NCBI GenBank assembly: GCA_949358305.1
Contig: OX442323.1
Location: 5,766,001-5,830,000, forward strand
Source of the DNA: Strigamia acuminata
Taxonomy: Eukaryota; Arthropoda; Chilopoda; Geophilomorpha; Linotaeniidae
DNA length: 64,000 bases
Direction of reading: 5' to 3'
Part shown: piece by piece, positions 25,035 through 60,325 of the stretch
Layout: each line of letters opens with the position of its first letter
Position numbering within the stretch: the stretch's first letter is position 1
Notes under the pieces: model-generated
The model's database searches: none
Told to the model about the DNA's origin: nothing
Seen by the model: only the letters and a program-made list of their open reading frames with translations
Position numbers and translations under genes: made by a program

Positions 25035-27600
25035 TCAAGATGTCGGCCTTCTGTGGCGCGGAACTGTAGATCTGAGCCAAGGATTTTTATAAATCCTTGC
25101 GTAAGCGACTATTTCTGCCATGCTGCGACAACTACGTGATAACAAACAATGAATTACAACAAATAATTCGCGAAATAATTCGATGAGTATCTCACCGGCA
25201 AGTTCGAGGGTCAAAATATGTTCCTGTGCTGCACTCATCGGCTTCTGGACATTTACATTTACAGTCCCGCTCACTCCATACCTAAAATTTACACATTTTT
25301 ATGAATTTTTTGGAACATCAATTCATTTTTAACGCGCCATTTTTGACAAGAAAATATTTGGTCTTTCACAATAATCCCACCAGATGGCACATGACAACAA
25401 CATGGTTGATTTATTTTTCTAAATTCGTGTTGTTTGATGTTTTATTTACAAATTTGACTTTAAACACATAAACAGTTTAAAATAAATAAATTTGACCCCT
25501 AAATTTGTTAATTAAATAAATTAAATTAATAAATTTTTCCATCTTTGTTTATGGTTTACCTTTGGGACCTTACACTTGAGCTGAGTGGCACTTCTGGGAC
25601 AAGTGCATCGGCAATTGTGTTTATTGTACACCTGATTAGCGCTACAATCGTCCGGTTGAACCTAAAATTTATTACATTAAATTAAATTAATAAATTAAAA
25701 AAAAAAAAATTCCACCAACTCACTTTGCATTGGCATTTGCATCTCGCATGACGTTGGATTTTGATAGTGGTCACCTTTTCAAATTCAAAATATTCGGCGC
25801 CAGCATGGGGGTACCTCAATGCCACAACCTAAGATAAGACGAGCAAAAAAATTAGCTCAAGTATGAGTCACAAGTGACTAATGATCGCACCAAAAGGTTG
25901 CGAGAGATAAACAATTTAAAGAGTTCAAGCAAAAAATTTATGAACATTTTTTCGACTCGGACCAACTTTTCGACCAATCGCATCAATCCATCACCATTAA
26001 CCCTCCCGTACGCGTAACAGCACTTACAAATTCAATCGAAACATAATTCCCACTTTGTTTAATAACTCAAAAATGAATAACAACGATAATATGTAACCTT
26101 TCGCGTCGCATTCCTCGTGAGTGACGGTACGCACTCGAAGAGTTCGTGGGCGCAACATCCTCCGCATCGTTCAATTTGTATGCACATGGGTTGATAAATG
26201 AGCATCGGATCGGTCGGTTGAGGCACATGTACGGGCACTCTGCGCGGCCTGCAGAACGCTCTTTTATCGAAAATCCGTCCAATGTCCTTAGGATTGGTTG
26301 TATCTGAAAGAAAGACCACACAGGACGTCAGTCAGACCGTGTTGTAGTCGGTTTTAAGCTTCGGAATGCGCGTCAATATTGTTTTAATTGGTCAAGACCA
26401 GATGTGGAGGGTCAAGTGATGTTTTTTCAACGTGCATGAGAGTGAGAACACAGGGTGACATTCTCTCCTAACAAGATGAATCATTTGTAAATAATAAAAT
26501 TTAAAAAAAAAAAAAATAGAAGACGAAAAAAAAAGCTATAACATGAATGTGCAATTAAATGTGTAATTACCTCATCCGACTTATCAAACGGGAGCCACGA
26601 AGACTCGATAACCATATGTAAATTAGTAAAATGTGTTCTACTTAAATTTAAACTAAAGATAAATCACTTTTTAAAATGAATTACATCACCTGACCCATGA
26701 CTCACTTTATTTCCAGTAAAGTGATGATTAAATGTCAACCCAGACTTGGTCATTCGCGATTTCCCATTTTCTTGTTTTTGTTTCGCGCTTTAATTACGAA
26801 CCATAAACACCAGTCGAACTTAAAACTGTCTGAAATTTGCTGTCACCCCTGGTGACTAATTTACAAAACAGTATCAAGTCTCGAAATCGCGAATGCTGGT
26901 TTAATGTCATCGAGACCTTGATAAGAAATGGCGCCTCGGAGGTCTTCTTTATGACGGGCGCGTACAAAACATTATATCACAAAAGATGGCCAATGAACTT
27001 ACTGGTCAATCCTAACTTCAGTTGCCTCGCACCGGTGGCTGCTAGGATATTAGGATTACTGCGGAAACTCCTCGTTACAAATCTTCTGCCCGGCTCGATC
27101 AATTTCTGCATCAGTTCGTCATAACTTTCAATCTCCGACAGACGTTTCAATAATTCCAGAGGAATCTATAAATAAAAATACAGAAATTAAATCTAAAAAA
27201 CTAATTTCTCATTTTTATCCCACCTTTTTATCCGGCGTTTTCAATTGTGAATCCCACGAAATTTTATCAGCTTTCTGCAACTAAAAAACAAATTTCATTT
27301 TGTGAAATGTCAAGGTAGAAATATAAATCAATAGTGATTCAGTCCTTTGACTAATCCCAAGTCACGCACGATCAATACACGATAAAAATCGCATATCTAA
27401 TACACACAATACAGCTTAAAATCAACATTTAATTAGTATAATACCTGGATGAACTGGTTGGAATCCAAAGCGGCCATCCCCGAGTCGTCTTCGCCCTGAT
27501 GCGACTCGTTGTTGTCAACATGCTGAGCGCTGGTGACGTGACCCATGAAAAAGGTAGCGAGCAGGAGAGCCGCTGTTTGCGCTCCCCTGGTCGCCCCCAT
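25035..27600 (-). CDS. VEGF/PDGF (Pvf)-like secreted growth factor A
   Basis: Eight exons join in phase on the minus strand: 27600-27445, 27280-27224, 27165-27033, 26303-26098, 25828-25724, 25661-25560, 25281-25196, 25131-25035, giving 313 residues. All introns are GT-AG; the exon 4 donor (GTTACA) is weak. The start is the ATG before a signal peptide (GATRGAQTAALLLATFFMG). Exons 4-5 (residues about 116-219) hold the cystine-knot growth-factor domain with PMCIQIERCGGCCAHELFEC, the PDGF-family P-x-C-x(4)-R-C-x-G-C-C signature, and end CKCQCK. Exons 6-8 carry CxCxC repeats (NCRCTC, RDCKCKCPEADECSTGTY) like the BR3P tail of VEGF-C/D. Such proteins are secreted disulphide dimers that bind VEGFR/Pvr-class receptors. 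It is paralogous to the ligand at 36698-38616. VEGF versus PDGF naming is not meaningful for arthropod Pvfs. Confidence 0.9.
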
Positions 27601-31639: not shown

Positions 31640-31785
31640 TTAAAAAGTAGTTAATTAGAGTGCATAATCTTTTCGCGTATTAAAAATGTTAATACAACGG
31701 TAAACATGTACAAATTATATATTAACATTCAAGTAGATTGTATGAAAAGATAAAATAAGCGTCAATTGTAATCTAATCTTTAATT

Positions 31786-33872: not shown

Positions 33873-33907
33873 ATATCAAACATTTTCAAACGAAAAATAA
33901 ATATTTT

Positions 33908-33945: not shown

Positions 33946-33981
33946 TTTAATCCAACGCATTTAATTTAAATGCGTATTAAA

Positions 33982-36697: not shown

Positions 36698-38616
36698 ATG
36701 ACTCTGCTGCTTCCAATTGTGGGTCTTGTGATCATTGGGTTGAGGATCGACACGTGTACTGCGATGGGTGGTATTCATCGAGTGAAACATGAAATTATAC
36801 CGACAACAACAGGTGCGAGGATCGTATTTCCTGGTCAAGGAAGTGGAAAATCTAGTCAAAAGCCACGTCCAGCGCCGACGATACGTGAGAACGAATCTAG
36901 TGCAAGTCAGGTTCGTCGATTTTTTTACGCTTCTAATTTTGTCTCAAATATTTTTATTTTTTTATTTTTTTAAAATTTTAATTTGGTTTTTCTCATCCTG
37001 TTTATTCATCTTTATGGAGCCATTTGGATAAATATTAAACTTCCAGGATTATTCATACATTAAGTGATTCATTTTTTTTTTAATTTCTCTATTGATCTTA
37101 CATCACAAAAGAAAAATATTTTTAGATTTTTAAATTTTTAAATTAATTTTTTTTTTGGGTGAGGTTAATTTTTCTTAAATATGTCCCAAGAGGTATGGGT
37201 CAAGATGTTAACGCTCTTTTCCGGGAATCGAGCCATTGGCCCCAATATTCATGATGGTAGTGAACTTTCTCTAATTTAAATTTTTAATTTTTTTTTTTTT
37301 TTAATTTCTTAGATTCCAGTTTCACTATTTTTAAAAAACACAATCACAAACACCGAAGATTTCATAAAAGATTTAGTAATCAACAAAGGTAGAAAAAAAA
37401 TAATATTTTTTAAAATAAAAAATTGCGACTTTACGTCCATTTTTTAGATGACCTTCAATCCGCTATCCCCGCATCCGCATATCCAGCCAACGCCAGCAGT
37501 AAGTCGATACAAATTTCTCAATTAAAATTACCAGTAATTAACTAATTAAATTTTTTATTCCGTAATTATAGTCTTAATGCGCGCCAATTCCGGTGGTAAG
37601 TCAAAATTACGCAAATCAATCACTCCAACCCTCCACACCCGTTTCCTTCACCTCTTGACCTTCTCTTTGACCCCTTTTATTTACACACGTATGTATAGGT
37701 TCATTCTCTTTTGCTGACATAGTGCGCACGGGAGATTTAGTCCAAATGGCCCAATGCGAACCTCAATTGACGCCGGTAGTATTGGATAAATCGAGCGACC
37801 CATCCGTCATTTATTTCCCTTCCTGCACTCGCGTGGAAAGGTGCGGCGGATGCTGCATGCACGATCTTTTGGCGTGCGAGCCAACCAAAAAAGAAGTTCT
37901 ACAAGTAAAGGTAAATAAAAAAACAGCTGTTTTTTGTTGTATCTTCGATAAAAAAGACCATCTGCGAATTTCTGTGCGAAAATCGAACTAATTCGACGTG
38001 TTTGTTGACGTTGCAGGTGATGGTTGCGCGTTATCAGCCGGGCATCGATGGCTTTAATCACGAAGGTTTTAAGCATTTAGAGTTGGAAAAACATTCCAGA
38101 TGCGAATGCAGATGCAAGTGAGACGATTTGGATTTAAAAGTTTTTTTATTGGTGTTTGTGTTTGTGTTTTAATTCGTGTTTTTCAGGACGAAAGAAGAGG
38201 ACTGTAACGGGCTTCAAGATTATCATCCGAATGAATGTAAATGCGTGTGTCGGAATGAGAAACAAATTGAACTTTGCACGGGAGAAAACCGATTCTGGGA
38301 TCCAATAACGTGCGAATGTCATTGTAGGAACATTCGTGAGTGCTCGACAGGATTTTATTACGATACCGCGACGTGCTCGTGAGTTTTTTGAAATTTTAAT
38401 TACAATTTCTTAAATATAAATATGTATTTTTAATTTTTTTTTTAATTTTTAATTGAATTTAGATGTATCGCCGAGCGTAATACAGCGCCCGTGTATCGAG
38501 TGCCCAGTGGATTTAACTGGAGAAATTCTGCACAGAGTCCACACAACTTCGACGCTGCGTGGTCTTCGTCTTCTAACGGTGGAAGATTAGTCCGGAGGAG
38601 CGCAAACAGCGGATGA
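36698..38616 (+). CDS. VEGF/PDGF (Pvf)-like secreted growth factor B
   Basis: Eight in-phase exons, 36698-36910, 37313-37388, 37448-37498, 37572-37595 (24-nt microexon), 37699-37910, 38017-38117, 38187-38378 and 38463-38616, give 340 residues. The start ATG precedes a signal peptide (MTLLLPIVGLVIIGLRIDTC). Residues about 122-226 form the cystine-knot domain with PSCTRVERCGGCCMHDLLAC, and end HSRCECRCK. The tail has VEGF-C/D-like BR3P Cys repeats (NECKCVCRNEKQIELC, TCECHCRNIRECSTGFYY). The knot-domain boundary (phase 0 before VMVARY) matches that in ligand A (VVALRY), which supports common ancestry. Ligand B has fused the two A tail exons. AATAAA occurs at 38701. It is predicted to be a secreted dimeric ligand of a VEGFR/Pvr-type receptor. 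The upstream acceptor at 36674-36675 implies a non-coding first exon. Confidence 0.9.
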
Positions 38617-43200: not shown

Positions 43201-46200
43201 GAATTAAATTTAGAAAATGTGTCACAAGTAGTCCAATGTTGTTGCACATTGCATAATATTTGTGAGCAATTAAATGATAATGTTGAGCAAGCGTGGCTAG
43301 ATGAATTGAGTGTTGCTGTAAACAACGAGGGTCATGCAACTGTGCTTGGGGAGAGAGATAATGGAGCTCAAATAATCCGAGAGGCACTTGTTGAATACTT
43401 CCAGACCCTCCCGTGATAAAAATTCCAAAAATAGACTTGTGTACTTTCTGCATGTAAAACCAACTAAAAAGCAAATAAAATAAATGAGTAATATATGTTT
43501 TTATTTATAAAGTGAATTTATTTTCTGTTTAAATAATCTCCAAACATTTGATTGAAATTGCGTTGCAATTCCACACTTTCACTGAAAAGGTTATTTTGAT
43601 CCTTTAACAAAGTGTGAAATTGTTCATCACTTTTTTGTGATTCCAGCCGGTCCTTTTTAATTTCTTCCAGCATCTCCACGATGATGGTCTTTGGAGTTTG
43701 CTTCCTCCTATTTTTCCGCTCTAGAAATTTAGCTCTAGCAGCGGAAATAGTTGGTGTTTGGTCTAAAGTCCCAGTGGCATCCGAGTCTGATATTTCCCTG
43801 TTTGCATCTGGGGCCAAAAGGTCACTTTGGGAAGAGTATTCCCCCACATCTATAATAAATGATAATTTTAGTTATTTTAAATTTTTTTTTTACTTTTAAG
43901 TTGTAATAAATTAACTTATTTGCATATGATGATAAAAAATTAATTTTTTATGGCTATTTATAGCCATAAATTAATTATGAAGGCTGTAAATGCATTATTT
44001 ACATGTTAAAACATATTTTGTATACATGGAAATTAATTTTTACAGGTATAAATACATCTTATACATGTGAAAATTAATTTTTAAATGTATAAATACACCT
44101 TATATGTGAGAACATCAATTTTTACAGGTGTAAATACACTTAATAAATGTGAAAATTAATTTTTACGGGTGTGAATACACCAAATACATGTAAAAATTAA
44201 TTTTTACGGGTGTAAATACACTTAATAAATGTAAAAATTAATTTTTACGGGTGTAAACACACCTAATACATGTGAAAATTAATTTTTACGGGTGTAAATA
44301 CACTTAATAAATGTAAAAATTAATTTTTACGGGTGTATATACATCAAATACATGTGAAATTTAATTTTTACCTGTGCTGAGATCTCCTAAATCATCAGCA
44401 ACTTCAGTTGTTATTGCCTGAAAAATTGCAGCTGGAGTCTGTGGTGTTTGGGGAACATTTATTTCTTCTCTGCTGGTGTTGAGATTTCCAAGAGTAGATT
44501 CTTGCATTAAATATTCATTGTTGACAGGCAGACAACCAAGAATTTCATGGATTGGATAATAAAAGCGCCATGTGGATCTTTTCCCACCTGATGGTCCAAT
44601 TGCACTTTTTTCTTTCCTGAAATTTAAATCGGAATTAAAATCATACTTGAAAATGAGTAATTCTTTATCAATAAATAAACTTACCTGTAGTCTGCAGTGA
44701 GGTTTTTTATTTTTCTTTGGATCGCATCCCATGTCCGCGTGTATCCATTTTCACTTAAACTAGCCGCCATTTTTTGATAAACAATACGGTTGCGTTTAGT
44801 ACTCCTTAAATCATCAATGTTTTCCCACCAGACTTGGATGAGAACAACAATCTCGCTATCTTTCCACCGCTCTTTCATTGTTTTGTCCTTTTGAGCACGT
44901 GGAATTGTCGAAGCTGCACGTTGCTTTTCAGCCGCCATTTAATTTTAACTGTTGCACGCAGGGAATTGTGGGAAAGTTTTGGGCTAGCTTTGGCAATTAT
45001 CTAGTTCACAGAACTGGCTTTTAATTATCTGGTTTAAACATTTTTAAACTAGATAATTTTGGGCCAGATGCGTTCGCACCAAGAAAAAGAACTAGATTTA
45101 AACTTTGGGCTAGCCCAAACATTCTGGTGCGAACAAGGTATAACACTAAATACAAAGTATTTCTACAACGGATTGTCGGAACGCAGAGAAGTATAATATG
45201 TGCTCAAGTAATATCAGTATCAAACAAAAACAGAACAAGAGCGAGCTATATCCGTTTTGCAGGGGGATATATACTCGGTGAGGAGAATAGCTGTTCAGTG
45301 ATCCAATGGGATCACTGGGCAGTCAAATCCATCCAATCCCAGATCATAGGAAGTGGATACTCAGGACATAGTCTTCTACTAGGTCCACTACAGGAACTGG
45401 ATACGCAGGACACATTTTGGATTAAGTCCCTTTGACTATAATCCAAAAGGAGTCCAACTCACAGTGGGTGATGGGGGGTGACTTCACCAGGTGTAGAGTT
45501 TGCACATAATTCAATAGAATTATGTGACAAATAAATCAACTAGTTTTTAAACATCCAAAAGTATTTAAAAGTGTCTAAAGTTGCAGTGGAATAAAATATA
45601 AATAGTAATTTATATTTTATTCACTCAAAAATTGTCGAAATTTGAATTTACCGCTAAAACGCATCAGCGCCATCTATTGGTGAAGTAATCGTCCTATACT
45701 AACAAAGTGCATGACAGTGTAACCGTCACAAGTCCCCCTTAAATATATGTTAATACCTGTATTAACATACTATTTATTCCGAATATCTTGAGGATCAAGA
45801 CCACACTGTCATCTAGGGGACTCGAGCTGTAATCCTTGGTAAGTAAAAACCTTTATTTTATATCTTAATAGTATAAATAAAGAGTATTTCTTAATCAAAT
45901 GCTTCAAAAAATATTTATTAGGGTTATAAAACTTTCAATTATCAATAATAACTTCCATCTCTCTTTACAGGTGGACTTACAACTGCATCAAGAAAAGGCG
46001 ATAACTTAAACTAACATCAAACTCTTGTACCAAACAAATGATTAATAAAATTTAACAATTATTTTCACAAAACTTAACTTCTCACTGGAAATATAATGAT
46101 TTGCAAAATAACACTTTACACGTTAAAATTCAAGTATTAAAATTAGTATTCATATAAACAAACTCACATTGACTCGTAATCAAATTTTAACAGAATTGTT

Positions 46201-49200
46201 AAATTAACTATTAAAGATCTTTGAATTATTCACAAAAACGGCATAAAATACACCTGAACCTGACTAACTCTTGATTTCATCTCGGGTCAAGAAATGGAGA
46301 TGGAGAAAATGGACTCGTTACTTCTGGTCTTGCCTAAAAGGGGAAGATATCGGGAAAGTAACGGATCTCGACATCGTTGACGCTTTTCTAGTCCAACTCT
46401 TCATCCTCAATAAATCCTTCCATGGATGTAACAACTTCCGAGACGGCTGCGGGTGGAGAATTAAGTTGAATAGCTACCAATTCCGGTACTACATCTGGCT
46501 CAACGTCATGGATCAGTGGATTTAGGAGCATTCTGTGTTGTTCTTCGGTGAATACTTCCAGGGGATCAGGCCCTCCTAACGGAATGGTGTTAGCGCTGGT
46601 TGGCTCGGAGAAAACCAAGTGATGGTCGGGTAAGCCAGAGTGCCATCCCTCACGAATCAACGGGTGTGCTGCTGCTGAGACCTGCTGTAAAATCTTACAC
46701 CAAATAAAAGAGCGAGTTTGAAAAGATTCCGGCCGGGATGGATGAAAAATCCATTGGATCACGGCCAGTGGCACGCTCAAATCTGGAATTCGGTCGTTTG
46801 AAATCGACACACTAATACGTTTAGCTGCTTCCAATAAAATTGGGAAATAATGTTCCACTTCTGCCTTCGTTTGTTCCGTGAGTGACATGTCTGGTCTCGG
46901 CATATATGGGTGGACCAGTAAAATAACCGGTTCAGCAGCGTTGTTTACTTCGGGGAGCGGAATAGTCGCTACGATCATGTTGTTAGCCGAAGTTCCCTCT
47001 GGAGAAGCGGCGGCTTGCGGACCAGAATCGGCTGCAACCGGCGGAGAATCAGACGCAGTAACTGACGTTGGTTCGTTCGTTGGGAGGTTTTCCGCCGAGA
47101 CAACCGGAGTTCCATCAATCGCAGGGGTGGGAGTTTCCGGCTCGCGTTGTGGCTCCGTAAATCCTCCTCGTGGAGTCGAGGTGCTGGACATTTGTGCCGG
47201 GTCTACATAAATAGCCTGCTCCGGGCCCTGGTGGATGAGGCCACATTCGCGACACATCGCCCAATTGCGTGCTGTCGGCGTACTTAGCCCCTTGACGATA
47301 AATGGAAGAATTTCTTCATTCCACATGCTGGATATGGCAACGCGTTTACCACCGTGACAGTTCACGCAGACTACGGCGTGAATGCCGGATAACAAGGACG
47401 ACAACCATCCGCATCCTGCGCACAATGGGCAGAACATCAGCTTCGACTTTGGCATGATGTTAGTCCCCAAGGCGGCAGCTTCCATATCTCGAAATACGTG
47501 TTCTCTTCGCTGCTTCCGGTAACTTGGCAAATTTAGCTCCGATATCGAGCGAGCCTGCGATGTTGGGCGGGTCAGCGCTTCGGATGAAGATGCCAACGTG
47601 GACTTGGTGGGTCCTTTGGATTTGCCAGTCTTGCCTCGACTAGCGGTATCACGCGGATTTCGTGGTCGGGCAAACTGCCTGCTGGTAGCTGGAGGCGGAG
47701 CTTCTTCAACCGATTCTTCTTCTTGTGAGAAGTCATCTTGGCGCCGTCTCCTCGAGGCAGAACGGGAGTATTGTGACGAGTCGTCAGAAAAATCCCAATT
47801 CGGCGCATCATAGGTTACAACACGCTGACTAGCTTGACGGCCTCTGGAAGGACGCGAGTCGGTCGGGCTAACACCCATGGCGGTCCTAATTCGTGGCGGT
47901 ACGAGATCCGGGTTATCACGGGCCCAGTTGGCAACGAGCTCGGGGTCAGAGGAGGGATTAACGAAGCGATAATCCGTCTCTTCCGACTCTTCTGGATCCC
48001 AATGCACGTACTGTCGCTTGCTAGCACGACCTCGGCGACTCATTGCATCTTCAAGAAAATATAAATTTTATTTGAGAACATGAATCAACCGTCGGAAATT
48101 AATTTAATTTCAAATTAAATTAATTGTCGACCAACAACTGGATTAATTTCATAATTAATTCTTAAGTTCCCTTGTTAGTGTGTTTCCTCCATTTGTCGAA
48201 TAATTATTAAGATTAATAATTATTCTCGACTTGGCATATAATTTCATTTTATCGTTTAAAACAATATCGCTGATAAAATATTCAAATTAGTGTTTATTTA
48301 ATGAAATAAACCTAATTTTTGTATCTACACGACATAATAACTAAAAAACATATAAAAATATTAAAAAAAAATATTTTTGTAAGTGTTTTTTAGCATCCGA
48401 CAATAGTCATTTTACATGGTTTTAATTGTACGAATAATTCCACAATTCGTCCGAGTAAATAATTTACTACCGACATCTGGTGGCGTTTGCCCCTATCATA
48501 CACGTGACTTGTTAACACATGTCTGCTCACCAATTTCCAAGGAACTTAAGAGATATTTTATCTTTCATAAAATAAACACTTACTAACTAGGTGTAGTCCT
48601 AGAAGGGTATACTTGGCTAGTTTAATGTCTAGTTTCACGTATTTGCGAGGGCTGTTCGGTTCCGGCGATGTTGGCCGATAAAAACGTTGTGCGGCGCGTG
48701 CGAATTCTAAGTCCGCCGTAATGAACGCTTAACCAAAATAAATGTTGTCAATTAATGTCAAAATATTATAAATTTTGACAAAATATTGCTTAAATGTTTA
48801 CCGGGAATTCACTTAGTGAGTTCGTGAAAGGCTTACTCGCGATTTTGTCCACGAGATGGTTTCGATAATCAGCGTCGTGTCGATAATTTCTGAATTTGAA
48901 CTGATATTCGTCAAATGAAAAAATCAGTAAAATAAACGATAAGTGTTCAAAATCATCTAGATTTTAACTCACTAAATTTCAGCGAAAATCCGTTAAAGCG
49001 TCGAAGGGTCGAGAATAATCCTTGATTTCAGTCCAGTACAAAACTTGGCGAACAAGTGAGTGATAATCTCAAACCAGGGGTTAAGGGGAGTTTCGAGGAG
49101 TAATTTGATTGGTTTGTAATTACTCATCTCGAAGTTTCTATTAACCCAAAGGGGGAAACACAGTTTCAAGTAAATGTTTACACGTAGATTAATTTGAATA

Positions 49201-52200
49201 CAATCAGCTTGTGTAAAAAATAACTCAAACATTTGTTAAATTTTATCCACATCAAAAAAAAAATGTTTTTAATTAATAAAATTTAACAATTCTTCGTGAA
49301 TATGATTGGAAATATTTATTTAAAATAAAATATTTTCAATATATTGTGTCCTAACCCAACTTGACTTGTTTTAGACAATTTACGAGTTGTACAAAATCGG
49401 TCACGTATTTTGTGTTCGGCTTGGGTCTACGTTTAGACTGTCGAACGGGAGATGGAAATCTTTTCCTCTTTTTAGACGGATTTTGAGGAGTTTCGTCCTC
49501 TTTAGAAGAAATCTGAGAAGTTTCCTCCTCTTTCTCTTCAACTAAATCCTCTGTTTCTATGGACACAGGTTCATTTATTAATTCTGAAGAATTAATAACC
49601 TGACCTGCCATCCAATCTGGAGTCGGGTGTGATTCGTTGGTACCGACTTTCTGATCTAATGTCCATTCCTCAATCGGGTAACTTGGGATATAAGGCATTA
49701 AATCCTGTATGTTGATCGCTTTTGCTTTCGTGTTATCAGAAAGCTTACGTAGTGTGTAGGAACCTCCGCCAAGAACAGCCGTAATTTCCCAAGGTCCATC
49801 ACGTTTCTCAGCGAATCCTGCCGAAATCCCTTTATCTTTATTTGATAAAATATGTGTGGCTTTCCACACGAGATCTCCTTTGGCAAATTGACAAATATAA
49901 TATTTGTCTTTATGTAGTCGATCATGCTTTTCGTAATTCGATTGAATTTTCCGATGCATTTCGCTGTGTGCACGTCTAATTACGTCTAAAATGCTGTAGA
50001 CGTAGGCTTCGGGATTCTCTTTGTCGAATTTGATGGCGTGTTTAGTAATACGCGGGTCAAATGGCAAAGGAACGATTCTTCCTGTATTAAGAATCATCGG
50101 AGAACAATTTGTTGCCTCGGACTTAGCGGTGCGCATCGCAAAGGCAAAAGAATTTAAATATTTTGGCCAGTGAGAGTGAATGTCCGAGTATAAAGCTAAC
50201 ATCATTTTTAAAGTCCTGTTAGCCCGCTCTGTAATATTAGCGGCAGCGTGATATGGGCTAATGTGAGCAATATCTACGTGATTTTTTCGACAAAAATCAT
50301 TAAATATTGTTGACACGAATTGTTTGCCGTTGTCGGAGATTATCTTTTTTGGATATCCCCAACGGTGGAAAACTTCGCTCATTTTATTAACGATGCATTC
50401 ACTTGATGCAGTCGCTAGTGGGAAGACTTCAATCCATTTTGTACAATTATCAATGATTACTAAAATCCATTTTAATTGCGAACGACCGGCTGGTTTTGGT
50501 CCCATCAGGTCAATGCTTACAGTCTCCCACGGGTTGGTCATGTTGTGAGGTGTATAGCTTGCCCGATGCTTTTGGTGTTGACTAGGTTTGTATTGTTGGC
50601 AATGAGTGCAACTGCGAACGTAGTTTCGAGTGTCTTTGCTCATTCTAGGCCAGAAATACATCTGTTTTGCTCTATCTAGGGTTTTGCTCATGCCGGCATG
50701 TCCTGTAAGTGGGTGGCCATGGCATGCGAATAATGCACGTCTCACGAGAGAGCGTGGAATTACCGCCTTAAACCCGTTGCCGGAGTCGTTTAACTCTTCC
50801 TCATCGGTCGGAGCAAAATAAATTAGCATAACACCTTTATTTTCTTCCGGTTCGTCGAGAGTGTAGCCACGAATCGCGTTTAACCAATGTTTATCCGTGA
50901 CACGATTTTTTAATTTTTCGTCTCCTTTTAGGTAAACAAGGATTTTACTACATGCTGGATCTTTAAGCTGCGCTTCGATAATTTCGTCTCGCGTCGGCGG
51001 AACTACTTTTAGGATATCTGTTAGCGCAGTGTGTACATTTTCGTGATTACAATTGTGGACATCTATATGTCTGCAATTTTCTCTTGTACATCCTTCTTCC
51101 TCCCCCTTTTCTCCAGAATCATGAAATCTAACTGGATTATATGATTCTGAGAAAAAGTCTAAACTAAGGCCAACATTTGTAAGAAAATGTTTGCGCTCAG
51201 TTTCCGTCACTTGTAAAGATGCACACCTGTTTCCATTCCAAGTTGGATAGAAATGGGTGATCTCCTCTGGTTCGATATAATCATAATCCGGAGTGTCTAG
51301 TGCAGACAGTGGAGCGCGTGATAATGCGTCCGCTACTTGGTTCATTGCGCCGCGTCTAAAAATAATTTTAAACGCGCCACATTGTATTTTGACGGCCCAA
51401 CGACCAAACCTTCCGGATGGTTCCGGCGTACTCATCAACCAGCTAAGGGCTTTAGCATCGGACTCGAGAGTGAAAGTCGTGTATTCTATATATGGGCGAA
51501 ATCTCTCGGTTGCCCATACAACGGCCAAACACTCCAATTCCGGCGTAGAATACCTTACTTCGGCCCCGTGTAACACTCGACTGGCGTACGCGACTGCTTT
51601 CGGGACCATAATTAATTTCTGTTTCTTTTCACAGAATAATTCGACATCTTGGCAGAGTACTGCACCTAAGCCTGAATGAGAAGCATCTGTCAAAATGACA
51701 AAAGGCTTATTCATATCTGGCATGTGGAGAAGGGCTTGGTCCTTGTCACACAAAATATCTTTGATAGTTTCGAATGCAGTTGTTTGTGGATCATCCCACA
51801 CAAACTTTGCTTGATCATGCATAATATTGGTCAATGGACGAGCAATATTTGCGATGTTAGGAATAAATTTTCGGAAAAAATTCGCAAGTCCTACAAATCT
51901 TTGAATGTCTTTAGAGCAAGTCGGTTTGGGGAAATTCCTTACAGCCGAGACTTTGTCAGGGTCTGGAAGAAGAGATCCCTCCGAAATTAAATGGCCTAAA
52001 AATCGTAATGATGTTCGACCAAATTTTGACTTGTCTTTATTGATAGTTAGATTCGCGGCATCCAACTTCTTAAGTACGTCTTTAATATGTAATAAATGAT
52101 TTTCCCATGTGTCGGAAAAAATAATTATATCGTCTAAATAAACCAGAGCATGTTTATATAGAGAGTCACCCAATACGGTAGTCATGAGGTGTTGAAAAGA

Positions 52201-55200
52201 ACTAGGTGCATTACAAAGACCAAATGGCAATCTCTTGAATTGAAATTTGCCTTTTGGGGTGTAAAAAGCAGTTTTGCTCTTATCCTCCTCCTCCATTTCC
52301 ATTTGATGATAACCTTTAGTTAAATCAATGGATGTAAAGTACTTGGCCTGATTAGTATGGTGAATTAATAGGTCAATACTTGGCATTTGAATTGCATCAA
52401 CTTCTGTGATCGCATTCAACCAGCGGTAGTCGATACATAATCGATACTTCCCGCCGGGTTTAGCCACTATGACGGGGTGACTTATATAAGGGCCAGTGGC
52501 AGGTTCGATCAACCCATCGGCCTCCAACTCCTCGACCAATTCCGTCATAATCGCCTTCTTGGCCGGATTGTACATTCTATATGGCTGGTGTTTCCAAGTA
52601 GCACCAGGTTTAAACTTGATGCTGTGCTTGGCCACCTTCGTACAGCCCAGTTGGTCTCGAAATACGTTTTTTAATTGTACAAGAACGTTTACGAGTAACT
52701 GTTTTTCTTCCGCCGAACTGTTGCAGCCTTCGACGAGTTTTTCTGCCCAGTCCGGTGAAGTGGGAGTTCCTTCACCTTGGAGACCCAAAGTCTTAATGCT
52801 TGCTAAGCAACAGTTAAGTTCAGTGGTCTCGTACGGGGCTGTCCATCCGGGCATGTCATCACAGGTGAACACTGCTCGTCGGGGATTAGGGTTTATCCCC
52901 GTTCTACGCATAAAATTGTGACCCAAAATTAACCCACATACATTCTTGTGTAGAATTATGAAGGTCATAGGTGTAACTCTCCTTTTATCGGCCCATTTGA
53001 CACAAAGACAAACTTGACCGATAGGTCGGTGATCTATTCCGACCGCGCAGACACGCATTCCCCGGGGACATTCTTGTATGAATTCCACCGGAATTTCCGT
53101 GTTTGAGAGGAGTTGTACTCCAATAAAACATTGGGTGGCTCCAGAGTCCATTAGTGCGTTGTAATCCAAACCTCCAATTTGGACATTCATACGCGGATCA
53201 TCTTTGCCACCATTAATTAATTTGCTATTGCAAAGTTTGCCAAGCAATACTTTTCGTTCTTTCTTGTTCCATTTTTCAAGTTTAAGAAGTTTTCTTAACT
53301 TGAAAACCTTGGGTACAAGCGGTTTCTTGGGTGCATTCCAGCTTCCACTGAAAATACTCAAATTTTCTAGTTGGTCTGTCATGACTTTTAAATTTTCATC
53401 GACACCGCCAGTAGAGCTGCTAGTCTTTCGACAGACAGGTACGGCTTCGTAAGAAATGACCAACGATGGTGGTTTATTCTTCGAATCATCGACATAAGGT
53501 ACTGTGAGATGACTAGGCTTATGTCTTAATTTAAATTCATCTTTTCGTAAAAATAAATCATTTGACAATTCCGAGAAAGGAAACAACTCTTTAAGCGGGG
53601 GTTGGGCAACTTGAACAACCCCCTGAATCAGTTTTTTGTCTCGTCGGGAGTGACTGACTCAGTGGCTGCTGGTAAATGCTTAATTAACAGGTCAACCATG
53701 TTTTTCTGGAAGTCAGTAAATTTGGAGTCTAAAGTTTCTGACGTAACCCAATTTTGTTTGGGTCGTTTAAACTCGGGGTTGGGAGCAGAGTGGTTAAATC
53801 TTTTATTTGAATTTAACGAGTCTGATTTCCCTGCTAATTTTTTGGCAAGAGCGGGACATTCTCTTTTAAAATGTCCAGGCTCGTGACAGAAAAAGCATTT
53901 TCCAGTAGTCTTTTCATACTGGGCGGCAAATAATCGCTCCATTGAACCATCGTCAGTTGAGTCGTCATTTTCCGACTCGTCTTCATTTTCAACTTCATCT
54001 TGAGTTTGCGTTAAACGTAGTGAAGTTTTAGAAGGAAAAATCTTAGATTTTTCGTGAAGTTTGGGAGTAGGATGATTCTCTCGATTATCGTACTCCAATT
54101 TTGCTGCAAGTTGAGAACTTTCAAACTTAGAGCGATTTGCTCCTACATATTGTAGAATGTCATCTACTGTAAAGTTACCATACATTCCTTGTGTACATAA
54201 CGCCGTGAAACTTTCTTGAGTTAAATTGTCGAATAATTGCGCACGTCCAGTTTTATCACCTGGCGGCACTTCACCTTGTTCTTGCGTATAACGCAGAAGA
54301 AAACTATAAAGTGACTCGTCGGCTCGTTGTTTTACATTAAGAAGTCGCCTTTCTCTTGTAAGTGGAACGAGGTCGAAACAATCGAGAAAAGAGGCTTCGA
54401 AAGTTCGCCAACTGTTAAAAGTATGGCGTTGCTTATGGAACCAACGTTGTGCATGGCCTAATAGTCGTCCAGGTACAGCAGTGTGTACCATGTCGTCTAA
54501 AGGGATGCCTTTCCCGAGTGCGACAGCTTTGACGATTTCAAGGAATCGCGCAACCTCTGTCTGTTTCCCGTCAAAAATAGGAATCTCGATTCCTTTTCCA
54601 AAATTCTGACTGGGATTACTCGGGCTTCGGATTTGACCAACTAAACCCTGAATAATTTGTTTTACATTTTCGTCCGACAAATTAGAAGCAGAGTTCGAAT
54701 TGGGTGTAGACCGACTTCCTTGGTCTCTGGGTGGTGGATTTGGCTCTCCTTGAAAATTTTGATGTCTATCAGGTGGCGGTGGAGAACGAGAATTATTACG
54801 TCGGTGGAAATTATTGTTATAATTTCCCCCTCCACCAGCGTGAGATTCGTCACTACTCGAGTTAGGATCGGAGTCACGAGGATCACCAGGAGCTCCGGGA
54901 AATCGTTGATTTCTCGGCGGAGCTCGTCCACCTTGAGAGCGGGAATTTCTATAATTCCTAAAATCTCCATCAGATTGGGTGTGAGATTGAAAATTTTGAT
55001 AATTTTCATTTCTCCCCCTTGGTTGGACCGACAGATTAGTTCGAGGCTGTGGAACTCTGAAAGAATCATTCAAATTCCCAGTGGGAGCGGGTAAAATATT
55101 ATTTACAGCCGTCGCACTTGGTAAATTTCGGGAAATTGGCGCAGAAATATTTCCTTGTCCGGAATTTCCCATTCTTTCGGCCGAATTCGATCGCCAAGAA

Positions 55201-58200
55201 CTAGTTGGTAACTGAATCAAAGGTTGAACAGATAGTGAAGAATTTAACTGCCCATTGTCGTCACGAGCAACATTCATTCGCCATCCAGGCAATTGCTGGT
55301 AGCGATATGTGGCCGGCGAACGAGGGCCAGTTCGATCTATAGAAACACTTTGTTCGTTGGTTACAACTACATCGGGAGTAATTACACGATTTCTCTCGTG
55401 ATGATTATTCGCCGTGTATTGTTGAGCTTCACACAAAGAGGAAAACTGCGTCACTTCCAATTGGTAATGGCGACAGTAAACTTCTAAATCATGTGGGACT
55501 GATAGTGGATCCGTTCGAGAACTACCTGGGTTGGAAACGTCTCTAGGAACATTTTCTTCCCCCTGGCTTTCTAGATCAGACTCCACAATTCCTCTTGGTG
55601 TTTCACACATACCACCACGTCGTCGTGCTCCACGATTTCCTCGTGTTCCACGAACTCTTACAGGTCTACGGGCCATAATACTCAAAGAAATACACGTACA
55701 ACAAGGAAAAATAAGATTTTAACTGAACTAGCGTAAATGTAACACGCTTAATATTAAACTAAGAAATAATTTGAAAAAATACAACCTTAGCTGCTGAAAC
55801 TGAAGTGGCTTCGGAAAAACTGTCCTATTGCGTGGTCAAGAATGGTCCAAACGGGCACTGGTCACAAAGGCACAACTGGATGGTCGCACTGTCGAAAAGC
55901 AAGTGTGGCTGAATATTGGTTGTCAAACTAGCTTCCGGAAAATCTCCTTTGTCAAGACAGTCTGCTGTGATTGGCGATGTTGACAAATTCCTGATAATTT
56001 CTAATCCGAAATTCTCAACAATGTCACATCTGGATGACCTACTCCGAGCTGCATCGTGAGTGGTTCTCTTTGTCACATTCTTTACTTTGTTAAAGATTAA
56101 AATAATAATCAAAAACATTGAAAACAGAACAATAGAAACTTGGTCAAGTTTTTAACCAGCAAAATAAAATACTTTAACTTTTATTTTTCAGTCAGCAGGA
56201 TTTCTAGTCAAATTCGTTTTTTGATCAAAATTCAAGGTTTCGAAATTTTCCAGAATATAGCTGAATATTCTGGGAAACTCAATAAAATCATAATAGATTT
56301 TTCGTAAGAGATTCGGAATTATAATGAGTTTTTTTCAAAATAATCCAAAAATTCGAATTCAGATATTTCCAAAAGATAATGAGAATTTTTTGAAAACAAA
56401 TGGATATTTCACAGTAAATTTATAGAGAAAAATCGGAAATTTTCTAATTATAATATCTATATAAAATAATCAAGAAAATTCATTTTTCAATTTTACACTT
56501 TGATCACAGAGTTCACTTCGATAAAATGCAACCTATCTCGGTGGAACCTCCACGTGTGACGATTACCTTCTGGAGATAGCAATTGCTAAACTAAAGTGTG
56601 AACTATCTGTGTGAAAATGTAAAATATGCAAACCTGATGTTTTCTCAAAACATATAACATTTATTCCGGTTTGAACCTTATATAAATACTATGCCTACAA
56701 GTGGCTAAAATGACGAGAAGTTAAACTATACAGTTGTTTGGCAAAAGCCCTGAAATAATATCATTTGAAGGCTTCAGTCATGCAATAAGAATTTGTAACG
56801 GTCTTATTGCTGTGACGTAAAAGATGTCATCTATGAATGGCTTTGGCTTCTAAATGGTCCGGGGTTTGGTTCTAAAAGGCGTGTAAATGGTTAGGCTGGG
56901 TGGGTTATATCCGAGAGGTGCGGTTGACTTTTCTGTATCGTCACACACATCGCATCGCAGATAATTGTTGTAATCAATAATTACCGCGAGATGTAACAAT
57001 GTGAGAATAAATATTCATATTAATTCTATGGAATTAATCATGATATTTTAGAGTCACAAACTTAACTAAAACTATGAAAATAAGTAAAATATATTAAAAT
57101 AGCGCCGAGCTATTTTTTGCCCCGAGTGCAATCAACATCTAAGTTAGACTTAAATGTTCCGTCAAACCAATAACGAATTGAATCGAAATATCTCGCAGGA
57201 AAGGTTATCCATCGCCGGGAAATTACTCCACTCGGTCCTGGCTGGCGGGAGAGTAACCGGGAAATTACTCCGCGTCGATTACTCTGATAATGCGTCTGTG
57301 AAATATAAATACTCCACTCTAGATTCTACATTACCAATGCGTCTGTGAATTTTACTCCACTCTAGATTCTGCACTCTACAACGGAATGTTGGCATGAAGC
57401 TGGAGGGAGTGCGTCTGTGGGTTGTACCCCACTCTAGATACTACACTTAAATGTGTCTGTGAATTACTCACTCTAGTTACAACATTTCTACAACGGAATG
57501 TTGGCATGAAGAGGCGGGCAGTGTGTCTGTGAGTCTTCTACCCACTCTAGATACTTACACTAAATACAAAGTATTTCTACAACGGATTGTCGGAACGCAG
57601 AGAAGTATAATATGTGCTCAAGTAATATCAGTATCAAACAAAAACAGAACAAGAGCGAGCTATATCCGTTTTGCAGGGGGATATATACTCGGTGAGGAGA
57701 ATAGCTGTTCAGTGATCCAATGGGATCACTGGGCAGTCAAATCCATCCAATCCCAGATCATAGGAAGTGGATACTCAGGACATAGTCTTCTACTAGGTCC
57801 ACTACAGGAACTGGATACGCAGGACACATTTTGGATTAAGTCCCTTTGACTATAATCCAAAAGGAGTCCAACTCACAGTGGGTGATGGGGGGTGACTTCA
57901 CCAGGTGTAGAGTTTGCACATAATTCAATAGAATTATGTGACAAATAAATCAACTAGTTTTTAAACATCCAAAAGTATTTAAAAGTGTCTAAAGTTGCAG
58001 TGGAATAAAATATAAATAGTAATTTATATTTTATTCACTCAAAAATTGTCGAAATTTGAATTTACCGCTAAAACGCATCAGCGCCATCTATTGGTGAAGT
58101 AATCGTCCTATACTAACAAAGTGCATGACAGTGTAACCGTCACACGTAATTTATATTTTCTGCCTCACAAACTACAAAGCATGCAATAGTCCTCAATCTT

Positions 58201-60325
58201 TTGTGCAGTGATGTTGAAAATATATTGACGTTCGAAGGAGAACTTCTTTATGTGAATCTGTTCTTGTAAATCATGGTTATTTTTTTCTATTTCCATTCTC
58301 CATTCAGGTGTGGCAAGAACCGAGTACGACCTTGGCCCCACTATGAACATACATTCTCCGTATCTGGTGGTGAAAACTAACTCAACCTTGAGTATTACCT
58401 GCGAGGGTTATCATCCAATCCTGTGGAATAGCACCTTTGACATAGTAATGACTCCTTCCTTTTATTTATTGACAACTCAATGATAACGTTGTTGAACTCG
58501 TGTTTTTATCACTTCAACTCGAGTGAAGTGTCTCTTTAACCCCTCTTATTCCCCCACAGTGCAATTACACCCACTTGGGATGAAAGATGGGAAAATGAAG
58601 TGAAAACAAGAGCGTTGTTTGTTCTCTTTTTGGTTTAGTTTGAGTTTTCCCACACTACTACATTAGAGGGGCCTTACAGCGCAGCTGTTTTAACGACACA
58701 ACGAACTAATTTGACGATATCAGTCAAAACAAATGAAACAAAGTCATTTTTATTGTATAGGAAATGGATGATCGTGCTCAAATCCACGAAAGACAAGTGA
58801 AGAAAGGCTACAAATCAACTCTGACTGTCGAGAATGCAATTTATAAAGACACTGGCAGAGTTTCTTGTTATTATGCAAATTCAAATATGAAATTTTCGGA
58901 TATTTATGTCTATGTTAAAGGTAATATGTTCTAATTATATTTATATGTCGATTACATCTCTCGTTGTTTGTGCAGATCCAAATAATTTATTCGTTCCTTG
59001 CAACACTTTTGTTGGTCATTTCGGCTTCGGACCAATTACAGAAGGTTATGAAGGGGTCATTCCTTGCAGACCCACAGATCCATCTGTGAATATGACTTTA
59101 ATTAAGTTTCCTTCGGATAGTCAAGTAGTGAGTTTTGTGCGTCTTTTTATCGTAGGATAATTCATTAACTAACAATTTTTTCTTTAGGTTCGTCTTCAGG
59201 AAGATGATATTGAATACGATCCGACGCAAGGATTTATTATTAAATTTCCAAATATATTTTTTACTGGTTTATTCGAATGCACGGCGATTTTAGGCACGAA
59301 TGTTGAAACTAGGGAATATCATATGCATTATTTTGGTCAGTGTTTTCGCTGGGCGGTTTTTTAAATATAAAAATAAAAAATTTAGCAAGATTTACTTTCT
59401 TCTAAATAGAAATTGAAGGCAAACCGCCGCATCCTTACATCAGAAACAAATCCACAGCTCTCGATGTGAACGAAGCCAAAGTTAAACTTGTGTGTGTTGT
59501 TAACGTTAAAACAAACAGCAGTGTGCAAATCAAATGGACTTATCCTAATCTCAAAGTAAAAGATTATTGAGATTGAATATTAGTTTATTAAACATTAAAT
59601 CTTCTTTCCAGAATGATAAACTCCGTATTTTTGATACGGAAGAAACATTTATTCGCAGTGCTAACGGATATAACTTCGTGAAACTGACGAGTGTGTTACA
59701 AGTAGCAAACGTTACGTCATCGGATGGAGGACGATATTCCTGTTTTTCTGTGGGTTCAAACAAAAAATACGAAGAGGATTTTGTATATATTCCTATTGAA
59801 AGTAATAGAGAAACTTATTTGAGGTTTTTTTGTGTGGAATTTGTATGAAAAGTGTGCAAATTTACAGGCGCTGCACGCATTGTGAGTAGTAATATGGACG
59901 GGTTGGTTTTGAACAGCGAAATGGACGACGAAATCAAATTGATGTGCGTTGTTGATGGATATCCCAAACCGAGTATCGAATGGTTCAAAAATGGAAGTTT
60001 AATTGACGAATCGATTGACAGAAGATATAATTTTTTGGACCATCAATTTGTTTTCGTCATCGATGAAGTCATCGCGTCTGACGCCGGTTTTTATTCCTGT
60101 TTAACGGTTAATCGATTAGGAAGTGCATCGAGGAATGTTACTATTCATATCGTCGATAATGGTATTTGTTTGGATATTTAGTTATTAATTTTTATTAATT
60201 ATTTTTTTATTTTTATAGATGCATCTCTTCATCAACAACATCGGGTGTCGATATCCAAAAGCAATATTATACAATTCAGCGTCAAACTTCTTATTTTTCA
60301 TCTCTTTATTCGATTATTTTTGTAA
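40212..60325 (+). CDS. Kinase-less VEGFR/Pvr-like protein with four Ig domains
   Basis: Exons 2-9 are firm: 58308-58444, 58761-58920, 58976-59127, 59188-59335, 59410-59555, 59612-59801, 59868-60161 and 60219-60325, all GT-AG and in phase. Exon 1 is a candidate at 40212-40293 (signal peptide MHATEHLLQLSLFWFTTFTI, phase-1 donor); 36417-36487 is the alternative. With exon 1 the product is 471 residues. The four Ig domains have Cys pairs in TCEGYHP/VSCYYAN, IPCRPTD/FECTAIL, LVCVVNV/YSCFSVG and LMCVVDG/YSCLTVN. Domain 2 (GYEGVIPCRPTDPSVNMTLI, then GFIIKF) and domain 3 (SSVQIKWTYPNLK) match the order and motifs of VEGFR/PDGFR domains 2-3, the ligand-binding pair. Instead of further Ig domains, a membrane segment and a kinase, the protein ends in a short tail FSVKLLIFHLFIRLFL and a stop. 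It is secreted or GPI-anchored. A gypsy element fills intron 1. Confidence 0.82.
42157..43416 (+). CDS. Harbinger (HARBI1-like) DDE transposase
   Basis: A single 419-residue exon starts at the ATG of MAALTTQQFEMMLFVM; an open upstream stretch lacks an ATG. It has an N-terminal helical segment, RDTH-like EMTREDTHYRRSIELDKRVA, a helix-turn-helix region (LASTAEFRTIGHLFGIGKTS), and the DDE nuclease: first Asp in IGAIDGTHIKI (about residue 205), second in AGRNNDSHVF (about 255), a further Asp in LLADSAFPL, and the Glu in RRVIENAFGRLKARF (about 331). These are the conserved blocks of PIF/Harbinger transposases. No stop or frameshift is present, so it may be functional. It works with the Myb-like partner encoded convergently. 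Confidence 0.95.
   Translation: MAALTTQQFEMMLFVMSSKLNEVNTRIAANHHRLMQLLRHRQRRQIRLRKMELIITTYLIQMQRAQPVCWSQVKSDEWWVIAKNMSDKRWKDNFRVSRATYNYLCTQMNEMTREDTHYRRSIELDKRVAIALYTLASTAEFRTIGHLFGIGKTSVCEILHEFVCLVVDKLMPEHIKFPQTREELKMKAEEFKLLWEFPQCIGAIDGTHIKIGPPKEHAVDYYNYKSCYSIVLLAICDAAYKFTYINAGAAGRNNDSHVFQNCGIFSVMTKCQLLHDLGELYMGKKIPLLLLADSAFPLMPTVMKPFPDNNDLPDEKRLFNYHLSKARRVIENAFGRLKARFRFVSKRIELNLENVSQVVQCCCTLHNICEQLNDNVEQAWLDELSVAVNNEGHATVLGERDNGAQIIREALVEYFQTLP
43518..44938 (-). CDS. Harbinger Myb/SANT-like accessory DNA-binding protein
   Basis: Three exons on the minus strand, 44938-44685, 44616-44372 and 43849-43518, join in phase to 276 residues. Exon 1 carries a trihelix Myb/SANT-like domain (ERWKDSEIVVLIQVWWENID, then IVYQKMAASLSENGYTRTWD and AIQRKIKNLTADYR). 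Exon 2 has the conserved middle piece STWRFYYPIHEILGC. Exon 3 ends in a coiled-coil-like helix (AKFLERKNRRKQTPKTIIVE, then LDYLNRK-type tail). In this superfamily the partner binds the transposon ends and helps the transposase enter the nucleus. Intron 2 is largely a 41-bp minisatellite. Confidence 0.88.
43985..44371. repeat. 41-bp minisatellite inside the Harbinger Myb-gene intron
   Basis: The unit TTTTTACGGGTGTAAATACA continued by CTTAATAAATGTGAAAATTA A (41 bp) occurs about nine times, with ATACATG/ATAAATG variants. The last unit runs directly into the donor of exon 2 on the minus strand. Confidence 0.88.
45731..45741 (-). other. Gypsy polypurine tract
   Basis: On the minus strand AAGGGGGACT lies directly before the 3' LTR start TGTGACGG, the position where plus-strand DNA synthesis is primed. 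Confidence 0.7.
46388..48043 (-). CDS. Third ORF of the gypsy element, zinc-binding, unknown function
   Basis: A 551-residue frame from a true ATG (MSRRGRASKRQYVHWDPEES) sits downstream of pol, in the position where errantiviruses carry env. It does not look like an envelope: no signal peptide, furin site or membrane anchor. Residues 1-180 are Arg/Ser-rich and disordered. Residues 205-267 hold three CxxC pairs (CPLC, CVNC, CREC) with an extra Cys, suggesting a zinc-binding fold. A Pro/Ala/Thr-rich linker follows, then a helical region (TKAEVEHYFPILLEAAKRIS, FIWCKILQQVSAAAHPLIRE). It is separated from pol by 1.3 kb of non-coding DNA, so it is probably expressed from a spliced or subgenomic RNA. 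I do not recognise a homologue. Confidence 0.75.
   Translation of the reverse strand: MSRRGRASKRQYVHWDPEESEETDYRFVNPSSDPELVANWARDNPDLVPPRIRTAMGVSPTDSRPSRGRQASQRVVTYDAPNWDFSDDSSQYSRSASRRRRQDDFSQEEESVEEAPPPATSRQFARPRNPRDTASRGKTGKSKGPTKSTLASSSEALTRPTSQARSISELNLPSYRKQRREHVFRDMEAAALGTNIMPKSKLMFCPLCAGCGWLSSLLSGIHAVVCVNCHGGKRVAISSMWNEEILPFIVKGLSTPTARNWAMCRECGLIHQGPEQAIYVDPAQMSSTSTPRGGFTEPQREPETPTPAIDGTPVVSAENLPTNEPTSVTASDSPPVAADSGPQAAASPEGTSANNMIVATIPLPEVNNAAEPVILLVHPYMPRPDMSLTEQTKAEVEHYFPILLEAAKRISVSISNDRIPDLSVPLAVIQWIFHPSRPESFQTRSFIWCKILQQVSAAAHPLIREGWHSGLPDHHLVFSEPTSANTIPLGGPDPLEVFTEEQHRMLLNPLIHDVEPDVVPELVAIQLNSPPAAVSEVVTSMEGFIEDEELD
48044..49350. other. Non-coding spacer between gypsy pol and third ORF
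   Basis: 1.3 kb of AT-rich sequence internal to the element without a supported frame. On the minus strand it would supply leader or splice-acceptor sequence for the third ORF. Confidence 0.5.
49351..53627 (-). CDS. pol: Gypsy pol polyprotein (PR-RT-RH-INT)
   Basis: Open over about 1411 residues from 53586, and open further upstream across the gag stop, so it has no ATG of its own near its start and is probably made by -1 frameshifting from gag. The order is aspartic protease (ALMDSGATQCF, about residue 147), reverse transcriptase (RLPFGLCNAPSSFQ, LVYLDDIIIFSD), RNase H (VILTDASHSGLGAVL), integrase with the HHCC zinc finger (HPLTGHAG then SCTHCQQYK), and the D-D-E core (SIDLMGPKPAG, IISDNGKQF, ANITERANRTLK). 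It ends in a GPY/F-like C-terminal module (GPWEITAVLGGGSYTLRKL). RT before integrase defines Ty3/gypsy. No stop codon interrupts the domains. Confidence 0.95.
53628..55676 (-). CDS. gag: Gypsy gag polyprotein
   Basis: A 682-residue frame from the ATG at 55676 (MARRPVRVRGTRG). The N-terminal half is Asn/Arg/Gly-rich and disordered. The capsid-like core follows (IPIFDGKQTEVARFLEIVKA, then VPLTRERRLLNVKQRADESL). The nucleocapsid has a single CCHC knuckle, CFFCHEPGHFKREC. The frame ends with a TGA at 53628-53630, immediately after a slippery heptamer that shifts ribosomes into pol. It is intact. Confidence 0.93.
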   Translation of the reverse strand: MARRPVRVRGTRGNRGARRRGGMCETPRGIVESDLESQGEENVPRDVSNPGSSRTDPLSVPHDLEVYCRHYQLEVTQFSSLCEAQQYTANNHHERNRVITPDVVVTNEQSVSIDRTGPRSPATYRYQQLPGWRMNVARDDNGQLNSSLSVQPLIQLPTSSWRSNSAERMGNSGQGNISAPISRNLPSATAVNNILPAPTGNLNDSFRVPQPRTNLSVQPRGRNENYQNFQSHTQSDGDFRNYRNSRSQGGRAPPRNQRFPGAPGDPRDSDPNSSSDESHAGGGGNYNNNFHRRNNSRSPPPPDRHQNFQGEPNPPPRDQGSRSTPNSNSASNLSDENVKQIIQGLVGQIRSPSNPSQNFGKGIEIPIFDGKQTEVARFLEIVKAVALGKGIPLDDMVHTAVPGRLLGHAQRWFHKQRHTFNSWRTFEASFLDCFDLVPLTRERRLLNVKQRADESLYSFLLRYTQEQGEVPPGDKTGRAQLFDNLTQESFTALCTQGMYGNFTVDDILQYVGANRSKFESSQLAAKLEYDNRENHPTPKLHEKSKIFPSKTSLRLTQTQDEVENEDESENDDSTDDGSMERLFAAQYEKTTGKCFFCHEPGHFKRECPALAKKLAGKSDSLNSNKRFNHSAPNPEFKRPKQNWVTSETLDSKFTDFQKNMVDLLIKHLPAATESVTPDETKN
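53631..53637 (-). promoter_or_regulatory. -1 ribosomal frameshift heptamer A AAA AAC
   Basis: In the gag frame the last codons read ACA AAA AAC TGA. The heptamer A AAA AAC fits the X XXY YYZ rule exactly. A -1 slip continues in the pol frame (CTG ATT CAG), which stays open. Placement directly before the gag stop makes function likely. Confidence 0.8.
56535..56552 (-). other. Gypsy primer-binding site for tRNA-Gln
   Basis: The plus strand reads ATCTCGGTGGAACCTCCA, which equals the 3' end of animal tRNA-Gln (CTG) with CCA. The minus-strand element therefore has an 18-base complement, starting TGG, two bases from the 5' LTR. Confidence 0.8.
56555..58144 (-). repeat. Gypsy 5' LTR, 1590 bp
   Basis: The uninterrupted copy of the LTR. 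On the element strand it starts TGTGACGGTTACACTGTC and ends GGTAATCGTCACA. It contains several short internal repeats of the type CACTCTAGATAC and TGCGTCTGTGA (57290-57555). Confidence 0.93.

Follow-up and report, generated by a model that had tools for sequence, protein, structure and literature searches.

A kinase-less VEGFR/Pvr-like gene next to PDGF/VEGF-family ligand genes in Strigamia acuminata

In vertebrates, VEGF is trapped by soluble VEGFR1 (sFlt1), which arises from the kinase gene as a splice/poly-A isoform, and there is also PDGFRL, a separate kinase-less gene that is related to the ectodomains of class III/V receptor tyrosine kinases (RTKs). Flies have one Pvr. Kinase-less receptor ectodomains are described also in relation to insulin: Drosophila SDR is described as binding circulating insulin-like peptides and antagonising them (PMC9067537, PMC7041946), and the kinase-less receptor form DAF-2B of C. 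elegans as sequestering insulin peptides (PMC7041946). The principle that a separate kinase-less receptor gene serves as a ligand sink is thus not new, because SDR is known as such a sink for the fly insulin receptor. Of the Pvf/Pvr system it has been reported that two or more Pvf genes are common in insects (PMC10328876), and that between two and five Ig domains are detected in the PVRs of crustaceans, with up to several genes per species (PMC11024359). In flies, Pvf/Pvr signalling has been described for haemocytes, for the closure of wounds and for cell growth, and in shrimp for immunity. The titles and first abstract lines of a part of the open-licence papers on this system mention no kinase-less VEGFR/Pvr gene of an arthropod, which is weak evidence of absence.

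Ligand genes and layout of the locus

The window, i.e. the whole stretch of 64,000 nucleotides that was analysed, contains two VEGF/Pvf genes (A and B) and a kinase-less VEGFR-like gene (R), all inside 35 kb. The models of the three genes were rebuilt exon by exon, whereby every intron was found to be GT-AG with consistent phases; the exon borders are models that were built without transcripts, and a single genome was examined. The outer coordinates of A, B and R agree with those of the first-pass annotation of this DNA. Ligand gene A (25035..27600, minus strand) has 8 coding exons (27600-27445, 27280-27224, 27165-27003, 26303-26098, 25828-25724, 25661-25560, 25281-25196 and 25131-25035) for 323 aa, with matches to PF00341 (54.4 bits, Pfam cut-off 27) and to the CXCXC family PF03128 (26 bits, cut-off 15), and in a PDB search VEGF-A came out best (E 4.3e-11). 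Ligand gene B (36698..38616, plus strand) has 9 coding exons (36698-36910, 37193-37256, 37320-37388, 37448-37498, 37572-37595, 37699-37910, 38017-38117, 38187-38378 and 38463-38616) for 359 aa; PF00341 matches with 54.0 bits (cut-off 27), and VEGF-B is the best PDB match (E 1.1e-11). C-terminal CXCXC (BR3P) repeats, a feature of VEGF-C/D and many invertebrate Pvfs, can be seen by eye also in B, where PF03128 was not reported at E <= 0.01. A and B had been proposed to be cystine-knot ligands with an RCGGCC signature, and this is what was found: both are multi-exon genes whose PDGF/VEGF cystine-knot domain scores above the PF00341 cut-off, and both contain RCGGCC. In the genome, PF00341 has six places, and RCGGCC is present at two of them, namely in A and B. 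The other four PDGF-domain places (C9:8651460, C5:4723160, C4:3664294 and C9:9989202) have RC-x(4)-GCC at this position and represent a divergent ligand-like subfamily.

The stop codon of B and the ATG of R are separated by 1,596 bp, and the two genes, both on the plus strand, are direct neighbours. It had been suggested that they become neighbours on the same strand once a mobile element is taken out; adjacency and strand are as claimed, but the element lies in intron 1 of R and not between the genes, so that the 1,596 bp hold regardless. Also the claim that A and B share a locus with R stands as far as the 35 kb are concerned, but A is on the opposite strand, and at least three genes unrelated to it separate it from B. 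Two of these were identified by Pfam, one as coding for an RRP8-like methyltransferase (PF05148, 249 bits) and one for an RPAC2-like subunit of RNA polymerase (PF13656, 100 bits); the third, a VAMP7-like SNARE gene, was named by eye. On the other side of R, the next gene starts about 460 bp 3' (start read by eye); its WD40-family matches are weak and below the cut-offs, and it may be Gemin5-like.

A receptor-family gene directly beside an RCGGCC ligand gene is expected about 0.001 times by chance, according to a post hoc arithmetic with 4 VEGFR-family genes, 2 ligands and an assumed number of 15,000 genes. No kinase receptor locus has any of the ligand genes found nearby, the closest pair on the same contig being 2.6 Mb apart. 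The proximity of A, B and R is suggestive of a module, as a hint and not as proof; the linkage may matter, and the adjacency could also be due to chance.

Some further features of the window can be noted. A GC-rich block (about 50%) at 33970-35470, between the RPAC2-like gene and B, contains long overlapping ORFs on both strands, and three ORFs between these two genes gave no Pfam family. At 17386-17743 there is a 21-bp tandem repeat with 17 copies and 99% matches, which accounts for the long ORFs that overlap on the two strands at this place. On the minus strand at 62200-64000, just past the WD40-like gene, the sequence resembles, by eye, the reverse transcriptase of a copia-like element, and a 119-aa ORF therein gave no Pfam match. 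An Rfam search of the window returned nothing at gathering score.

Gene R and its kinase-bearing paralogues

R (40212..60325, plus strand) has 9 coding exons (40212-40293, 58308-58444, 58761-58920, 58976-59127, 59188-59335, 59410-59555, 59612-59801, 59868-60161 and 60219-60325), across which the reading frame is open for 471 codons. The first exon (40212-40293) is signal-peptide-like as read by eye. The following exons encode four Ig domains, of which the first two are of VEGFR type: D1 (exons 58308..58920) scores 38.2 bits with PF22854, the family of VEGFR N-terminal Ig domains (cut-off 35.4), and has its best matches in the D1s of three paralogues, and D2 (exons 58976..59335), in VEGFRs the main VEGF-binding Ig domain, matches the VEGFR D2 family PF21339 (52.6 bits, cut-off 27). 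D3 (exons 59410..59801) is matched best by D3 of the kinase receptor at C1:35.47M. Among solved PDB chains, VEGFR2 is closest to full-length R (3v2a, E 3.4e-41). Because the fourth Ig is an I-set domain, a type with matches to titin, Robo and others, D1-D3 were also searched alone, and all of the 22 distinct PDB sequences found at E <= 0.001 are VEGFR1-3, PDGFR alpha/beta, CSF1R or KIT, again with VEGFR2 as the best. An assignment of R to the titin, Robo or contactin-family Ig genes was rejected, since these match mainly the later part and D1-D3 match class III/V RTKs only. By Pfam and both PDB searches the Ig domains fit VEGFR/PDGFR above other families.

The fourth Ig, encoded by the single exon 59868..60161, corresponds to the membrane-proximal D7, which in VEGFRs is a domain of receptor-receptor contact. 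It reaches z scores of 26, 25 and 22 with the D7s of three kinase receptors and of 15 and 9 with two D4s; in the controls, each D7 gave 17-32 with D7s and 2-11 with D4s, and each D4 gave 13-15 with D4 and 2-10 with D7s. An identity as D4 is thereby out. The first-pass annotation had read the Ig domains as domains 1-4 of VEGFR/PDGFR, which holds for the family match of D1-D3 but not for the fourth; judged from these comparisons, the order of the ectodomain is D1-D2-D3-D7. With four Ig domains R differs from the seven of VEGFR and the five of PDGFR, and four are found also in the kinase-bearing paralogue at C1:45.86M.

The terminal exon (60219..60325) encodes 35 residues with a hydrophobic tail that is followed by a stop codon and no kinase, and poly-A-signal motifs lie 100 and 207 bp past the stop. 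It has the position of a transmembrane (TM) exon: a phase-1 intron follows D7 in R and likewise in two of its three kinase-bearing paralogues, and in those two the next exon encodes the TM helix. A phase-0 intron inside D7 is present in all three kinase receptors and absent from R. A homology of the last exon to the TM exons has no support from the sequence, as position and phase agree but the similarity is not significant (z 1.35, -0.04 and -0.55). The mean hydropathy of the tail is 1.92 over 19 residues, including K, H and R, in comparison to 2.8-3.8 for the TM helices of the paralogues. Judged by hydropathy, the tail is not clearly a GPI signal, nor clearly a TM segment; R may be tethered (by GPI or a tail-less helix) or secreted, and since its C-terminus is hydrophobic, a soluble R seems doubtful.

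No split tyrosine kinase belongs to R. Ten kinase peptides from the receptors at C1:35.47M and C1:45.86M gave nothing credible in the window and the 10 kb downstream, where the best score (E 0.033) falls on a tandem-repeat stretch near 23.4 kb, while as a positive control all ten match all three kinase receptor loci (E 9.5e-8 to 9e-49, self-matches included). When a single joined kinase was searched against the whole genome, with 137 of 163 candidates scored, 62 matches reached E <= 1e-6, and the window has none of them. R as a receptor with its kinase further downstream was therefore rejected, no kinase exons having been found within the window or up to 10 kb beyond it. The earlier claims that the gene lacks a kinase and that a trap-like protein is encoded separately beside the ligands are borne out, the latter as anatomy, in that R is an open gene of its own.

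Intron 1 of R harbours a 17-kb gypsy-like LTR element (40963..58144, minus strand) that is antisense to R and has its long ORFs, 49351-53658 and 53628-55718, on the minus strand; a 559-aa ORF of the element (46388-48067, minus strand) gave no Pfam family at E <= 0.001. On one side its LTR is split into 40963-41963 and 45143-45730, and on the other it spans 56555-58144. These LTR parts show no difference over 1001 and 588 bp, and a 4-bp target duplication (CGTA) flanks the element, which is why the insertion is regarded as young. The break in the LTR match (41964..45142, plus strand) is due to a second insertion, nested in this LTR, with a DDE_Tnp_4 transposase ORF (42037-43416; PF13359, 124.7 bits). 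Without the element, the intron would have about 828 bp, and no modelled exon is touched. The insertion could lower the expression of R in this individual.

The genome was found to contain at least three kinase-bearing VEGFR/Pvr genes, a lower bound, which answers the call for a full-length Pvr elsewhere. A genome search with R, in which 90 of 176 candidates were scored, gave 101 matches at E <= 10. Nine of these belong to R, and exon matches in ordered groups point to three other loci, C1:35.47M, C1:45.86M and C11:3.21M. Each of the three carries HRDLA with ARN or TRN, as well as DFG, and their kinase exons, joined by eye, match PF07714 with 306, 288 and 283 bits; the models exclude the first, signal-peptide exons. 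By eye, two of these receptors have seven Ig domains and the one at C1:45.86M has four, with a 58-bp intron that joins D3 directly to D7, so that this receptor (C1:45857936-45863703) has the plan D1-D2-D3-D7 in common with R. At C1:35.47M, two differing stretches that look like exons for the latter half of D2 lie in tandem (C1:35471319-35471169 and about 35470808-35470704), which are possibly alternative exons that would alter the ligand-binding domain. TTAGG telomere repeats lie at the start of contig C1, as fits an arthropod. The profile PF21339 gave zero matches in the genome, which is uninformative because the known copies, with D2 split over two exons, were missed too. A search for viral relatives, with an alignment of three of the four receptor-like proteins, gave 19 pattern matches, and none was confirmed.

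In the D1-D2-D3-D7 ectodomain, R shares 28.5-33.3% identity with the three kinase receptors, which share 29.3-34.7% among each other. Resolved by domain, the identity of R to the receptors versus that among the receptors is 33% versus 29% for D1, 42% versus 38% for D2, which is the best-kept domain of R, 23% versus 30% for D3, and 28.5% versus 30.4% for D7, and R and the three receptors have retained eight of the eight Ig cysteine columns. The conservation of D1 and D2 together with that of the cysteine columns is evidence against a decay of R, and a recent truncated copy of a kinase receptor was rejected, as the identity is just 28.5-33.3%. R thus appears to be an old, constrained paralogue, with D2 probably under constraint and D3 drifted. 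Concerning its origin, a tree prefers the four-Ig receptor at C1:45.86M (RELL 0.70) but rejects no alternative (AU 0.74, 0.35 and 0.19). A descent from that receptor would fit this tree and the common four-Ig plan, whereas other aspects are against it or neutral: the pairwise identity of R is lowest to C1:45.86M (28.5%) and highest to C1:35.47M (33.3%), D3 of R gives a z score of 5 with D3 of the former and of 21 with D3 of the latter, and the introns common to R and C1:45.86M are found also in C11:3.21M.

Possible functions of R

Our preferred reading, to which we give a better than even chance, is that R is an old VEGFR/Pvr paralogue that lost the kinase and whose exported product would bind Pvf dimers and restrain or shape Pvr signalling, much as SDR does for insulin. 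A VEGFR/Pvr paralogue would have lost the kinase and kept D1-D2-D3 and D7, with the coding sequence ending about where a TM helix ends. The product would be exported and bind Pvf dimers via D2-D3, the first candidates being A and B, and the hydrophobic tail would hold it on the membrane (with a GPI-type or tail-less anchor), or it would be shed. As it cannot phosphorylate, it would act as a ligand sink, as a local gradient-shaper, or as a dominant-negative partner that joins the kinase receptors via D7. Export, tethering, ligand binding and the direction of the effect are what we infer from this anatomy. The drifted D3 is part of the VEGF-binding site and may indicate that the choice of ligands has changed or that binding is weakened. 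A wider version, in which a D1-D2-D3-D7 VEGFR/Pvr gene lost its kinase in an arthropod lineage, became a standing brake on Pvfs, and stayed by the only two RCGGCC Pvf genes for co-expression, would make the place a dedicated growth-factor/antagonist locus, and this can be put forward just tentatively.

A co-receptor role or a dominant-negative pairing via D7 fits the anatomy nearly as well as a sink does. As a tethered co-receptor or ligand-presenting protein, R would concentrate Pvfs, pass them to the kinase receptors and promote signalling; that D7 is kept although D4-D6 are absent agrees with this, as does a tail that suggests membrane attachment, but no sequence feature shows such a role, and SDR, the known separate gene for a kinase-less RTK ectodomain, is described as an antagonist (PMC9067537, PMC7041946), so that a promoting function is rather unlikely. 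R may also have been released from growth factor binding and have taken over another role, e.g. in adhesion. The lower conservation of D3 would suit this, and so would the many adhesion-type I-set domains that the fourth Ig matches among the best 60 of 312 matches of R, but it is difficult to reconcile with D2, the main ligand-binding domain, being the best conserved one and at or above the level seen among the kinase receptors, and such a release is considered a little more doubtful still.

That R is a pseudogene or the dying fragment of a receptor that lost its kinase part, with an accidental place beside the ligand genes, could be thought of in view of the missing kinase, the young 17-kb element in intron 1 and the single genome that was examined. 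It is very improbable, as there are nine intact exons with 471 open codons and canonical splice sites, and the complete set of cysteine columns as well as VEGFR-family scores above cut-off are found at an identity of only 28.5-33.3%; an unconstrained gene so old would be expected to be broken. Least credible of all is an artefact of assembly or gene modelling, in which the true gene runs on into misplaced kinase exons. Although the exon borders are models without transcripts, R has a terminal exon with a stop codon and poly-A-signal motifs, the WD40-like gene follows after about 460 bp (by eye), there is no kinase exon in the window or 10 kb beyond, and the VEGFR-type kinase exons that were found cluster at three loci, each with an ectodomain of its own.

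Comparison with known systems

If the preferred reading is true, the kinase-less receptor would add a layer of negative control that is invisible to work in flies with their one Pvr, and VEGF-sink proteins would have arisen both as isoforms, as in sFlt1, and as a separate gene. In comparison to the arthropod Pvr and PVR1-PVR2 proteins, which belong to the same family as the three kinase paralogues found here, R differs in that those have kinases and R has none. With sFlt1 it has in common the VEGFR ligand-binding Ig domains without a kinase, but R is a gene of its own, has the order D1-D2-D3-D7 and ends with a hydrophobic tail. PDGFRL, like R, is a separate kinase-less gene; among solved chains R is closest to VEGFR2. 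DAF-2B is unlike R in being a splice isoform of the insulin receptor and not a separate gene. Like SDR, R is its own gene for an RTK ectodomain, in which the ligand-binding domains are kept and the kinase is absent. As to secretion, R has the signal-peptide-like exon recognised by eye, but its hydrophobic tail favours tethering; and while SDR belongs to the insulin receptor family, R is a member of the VEGFR family.
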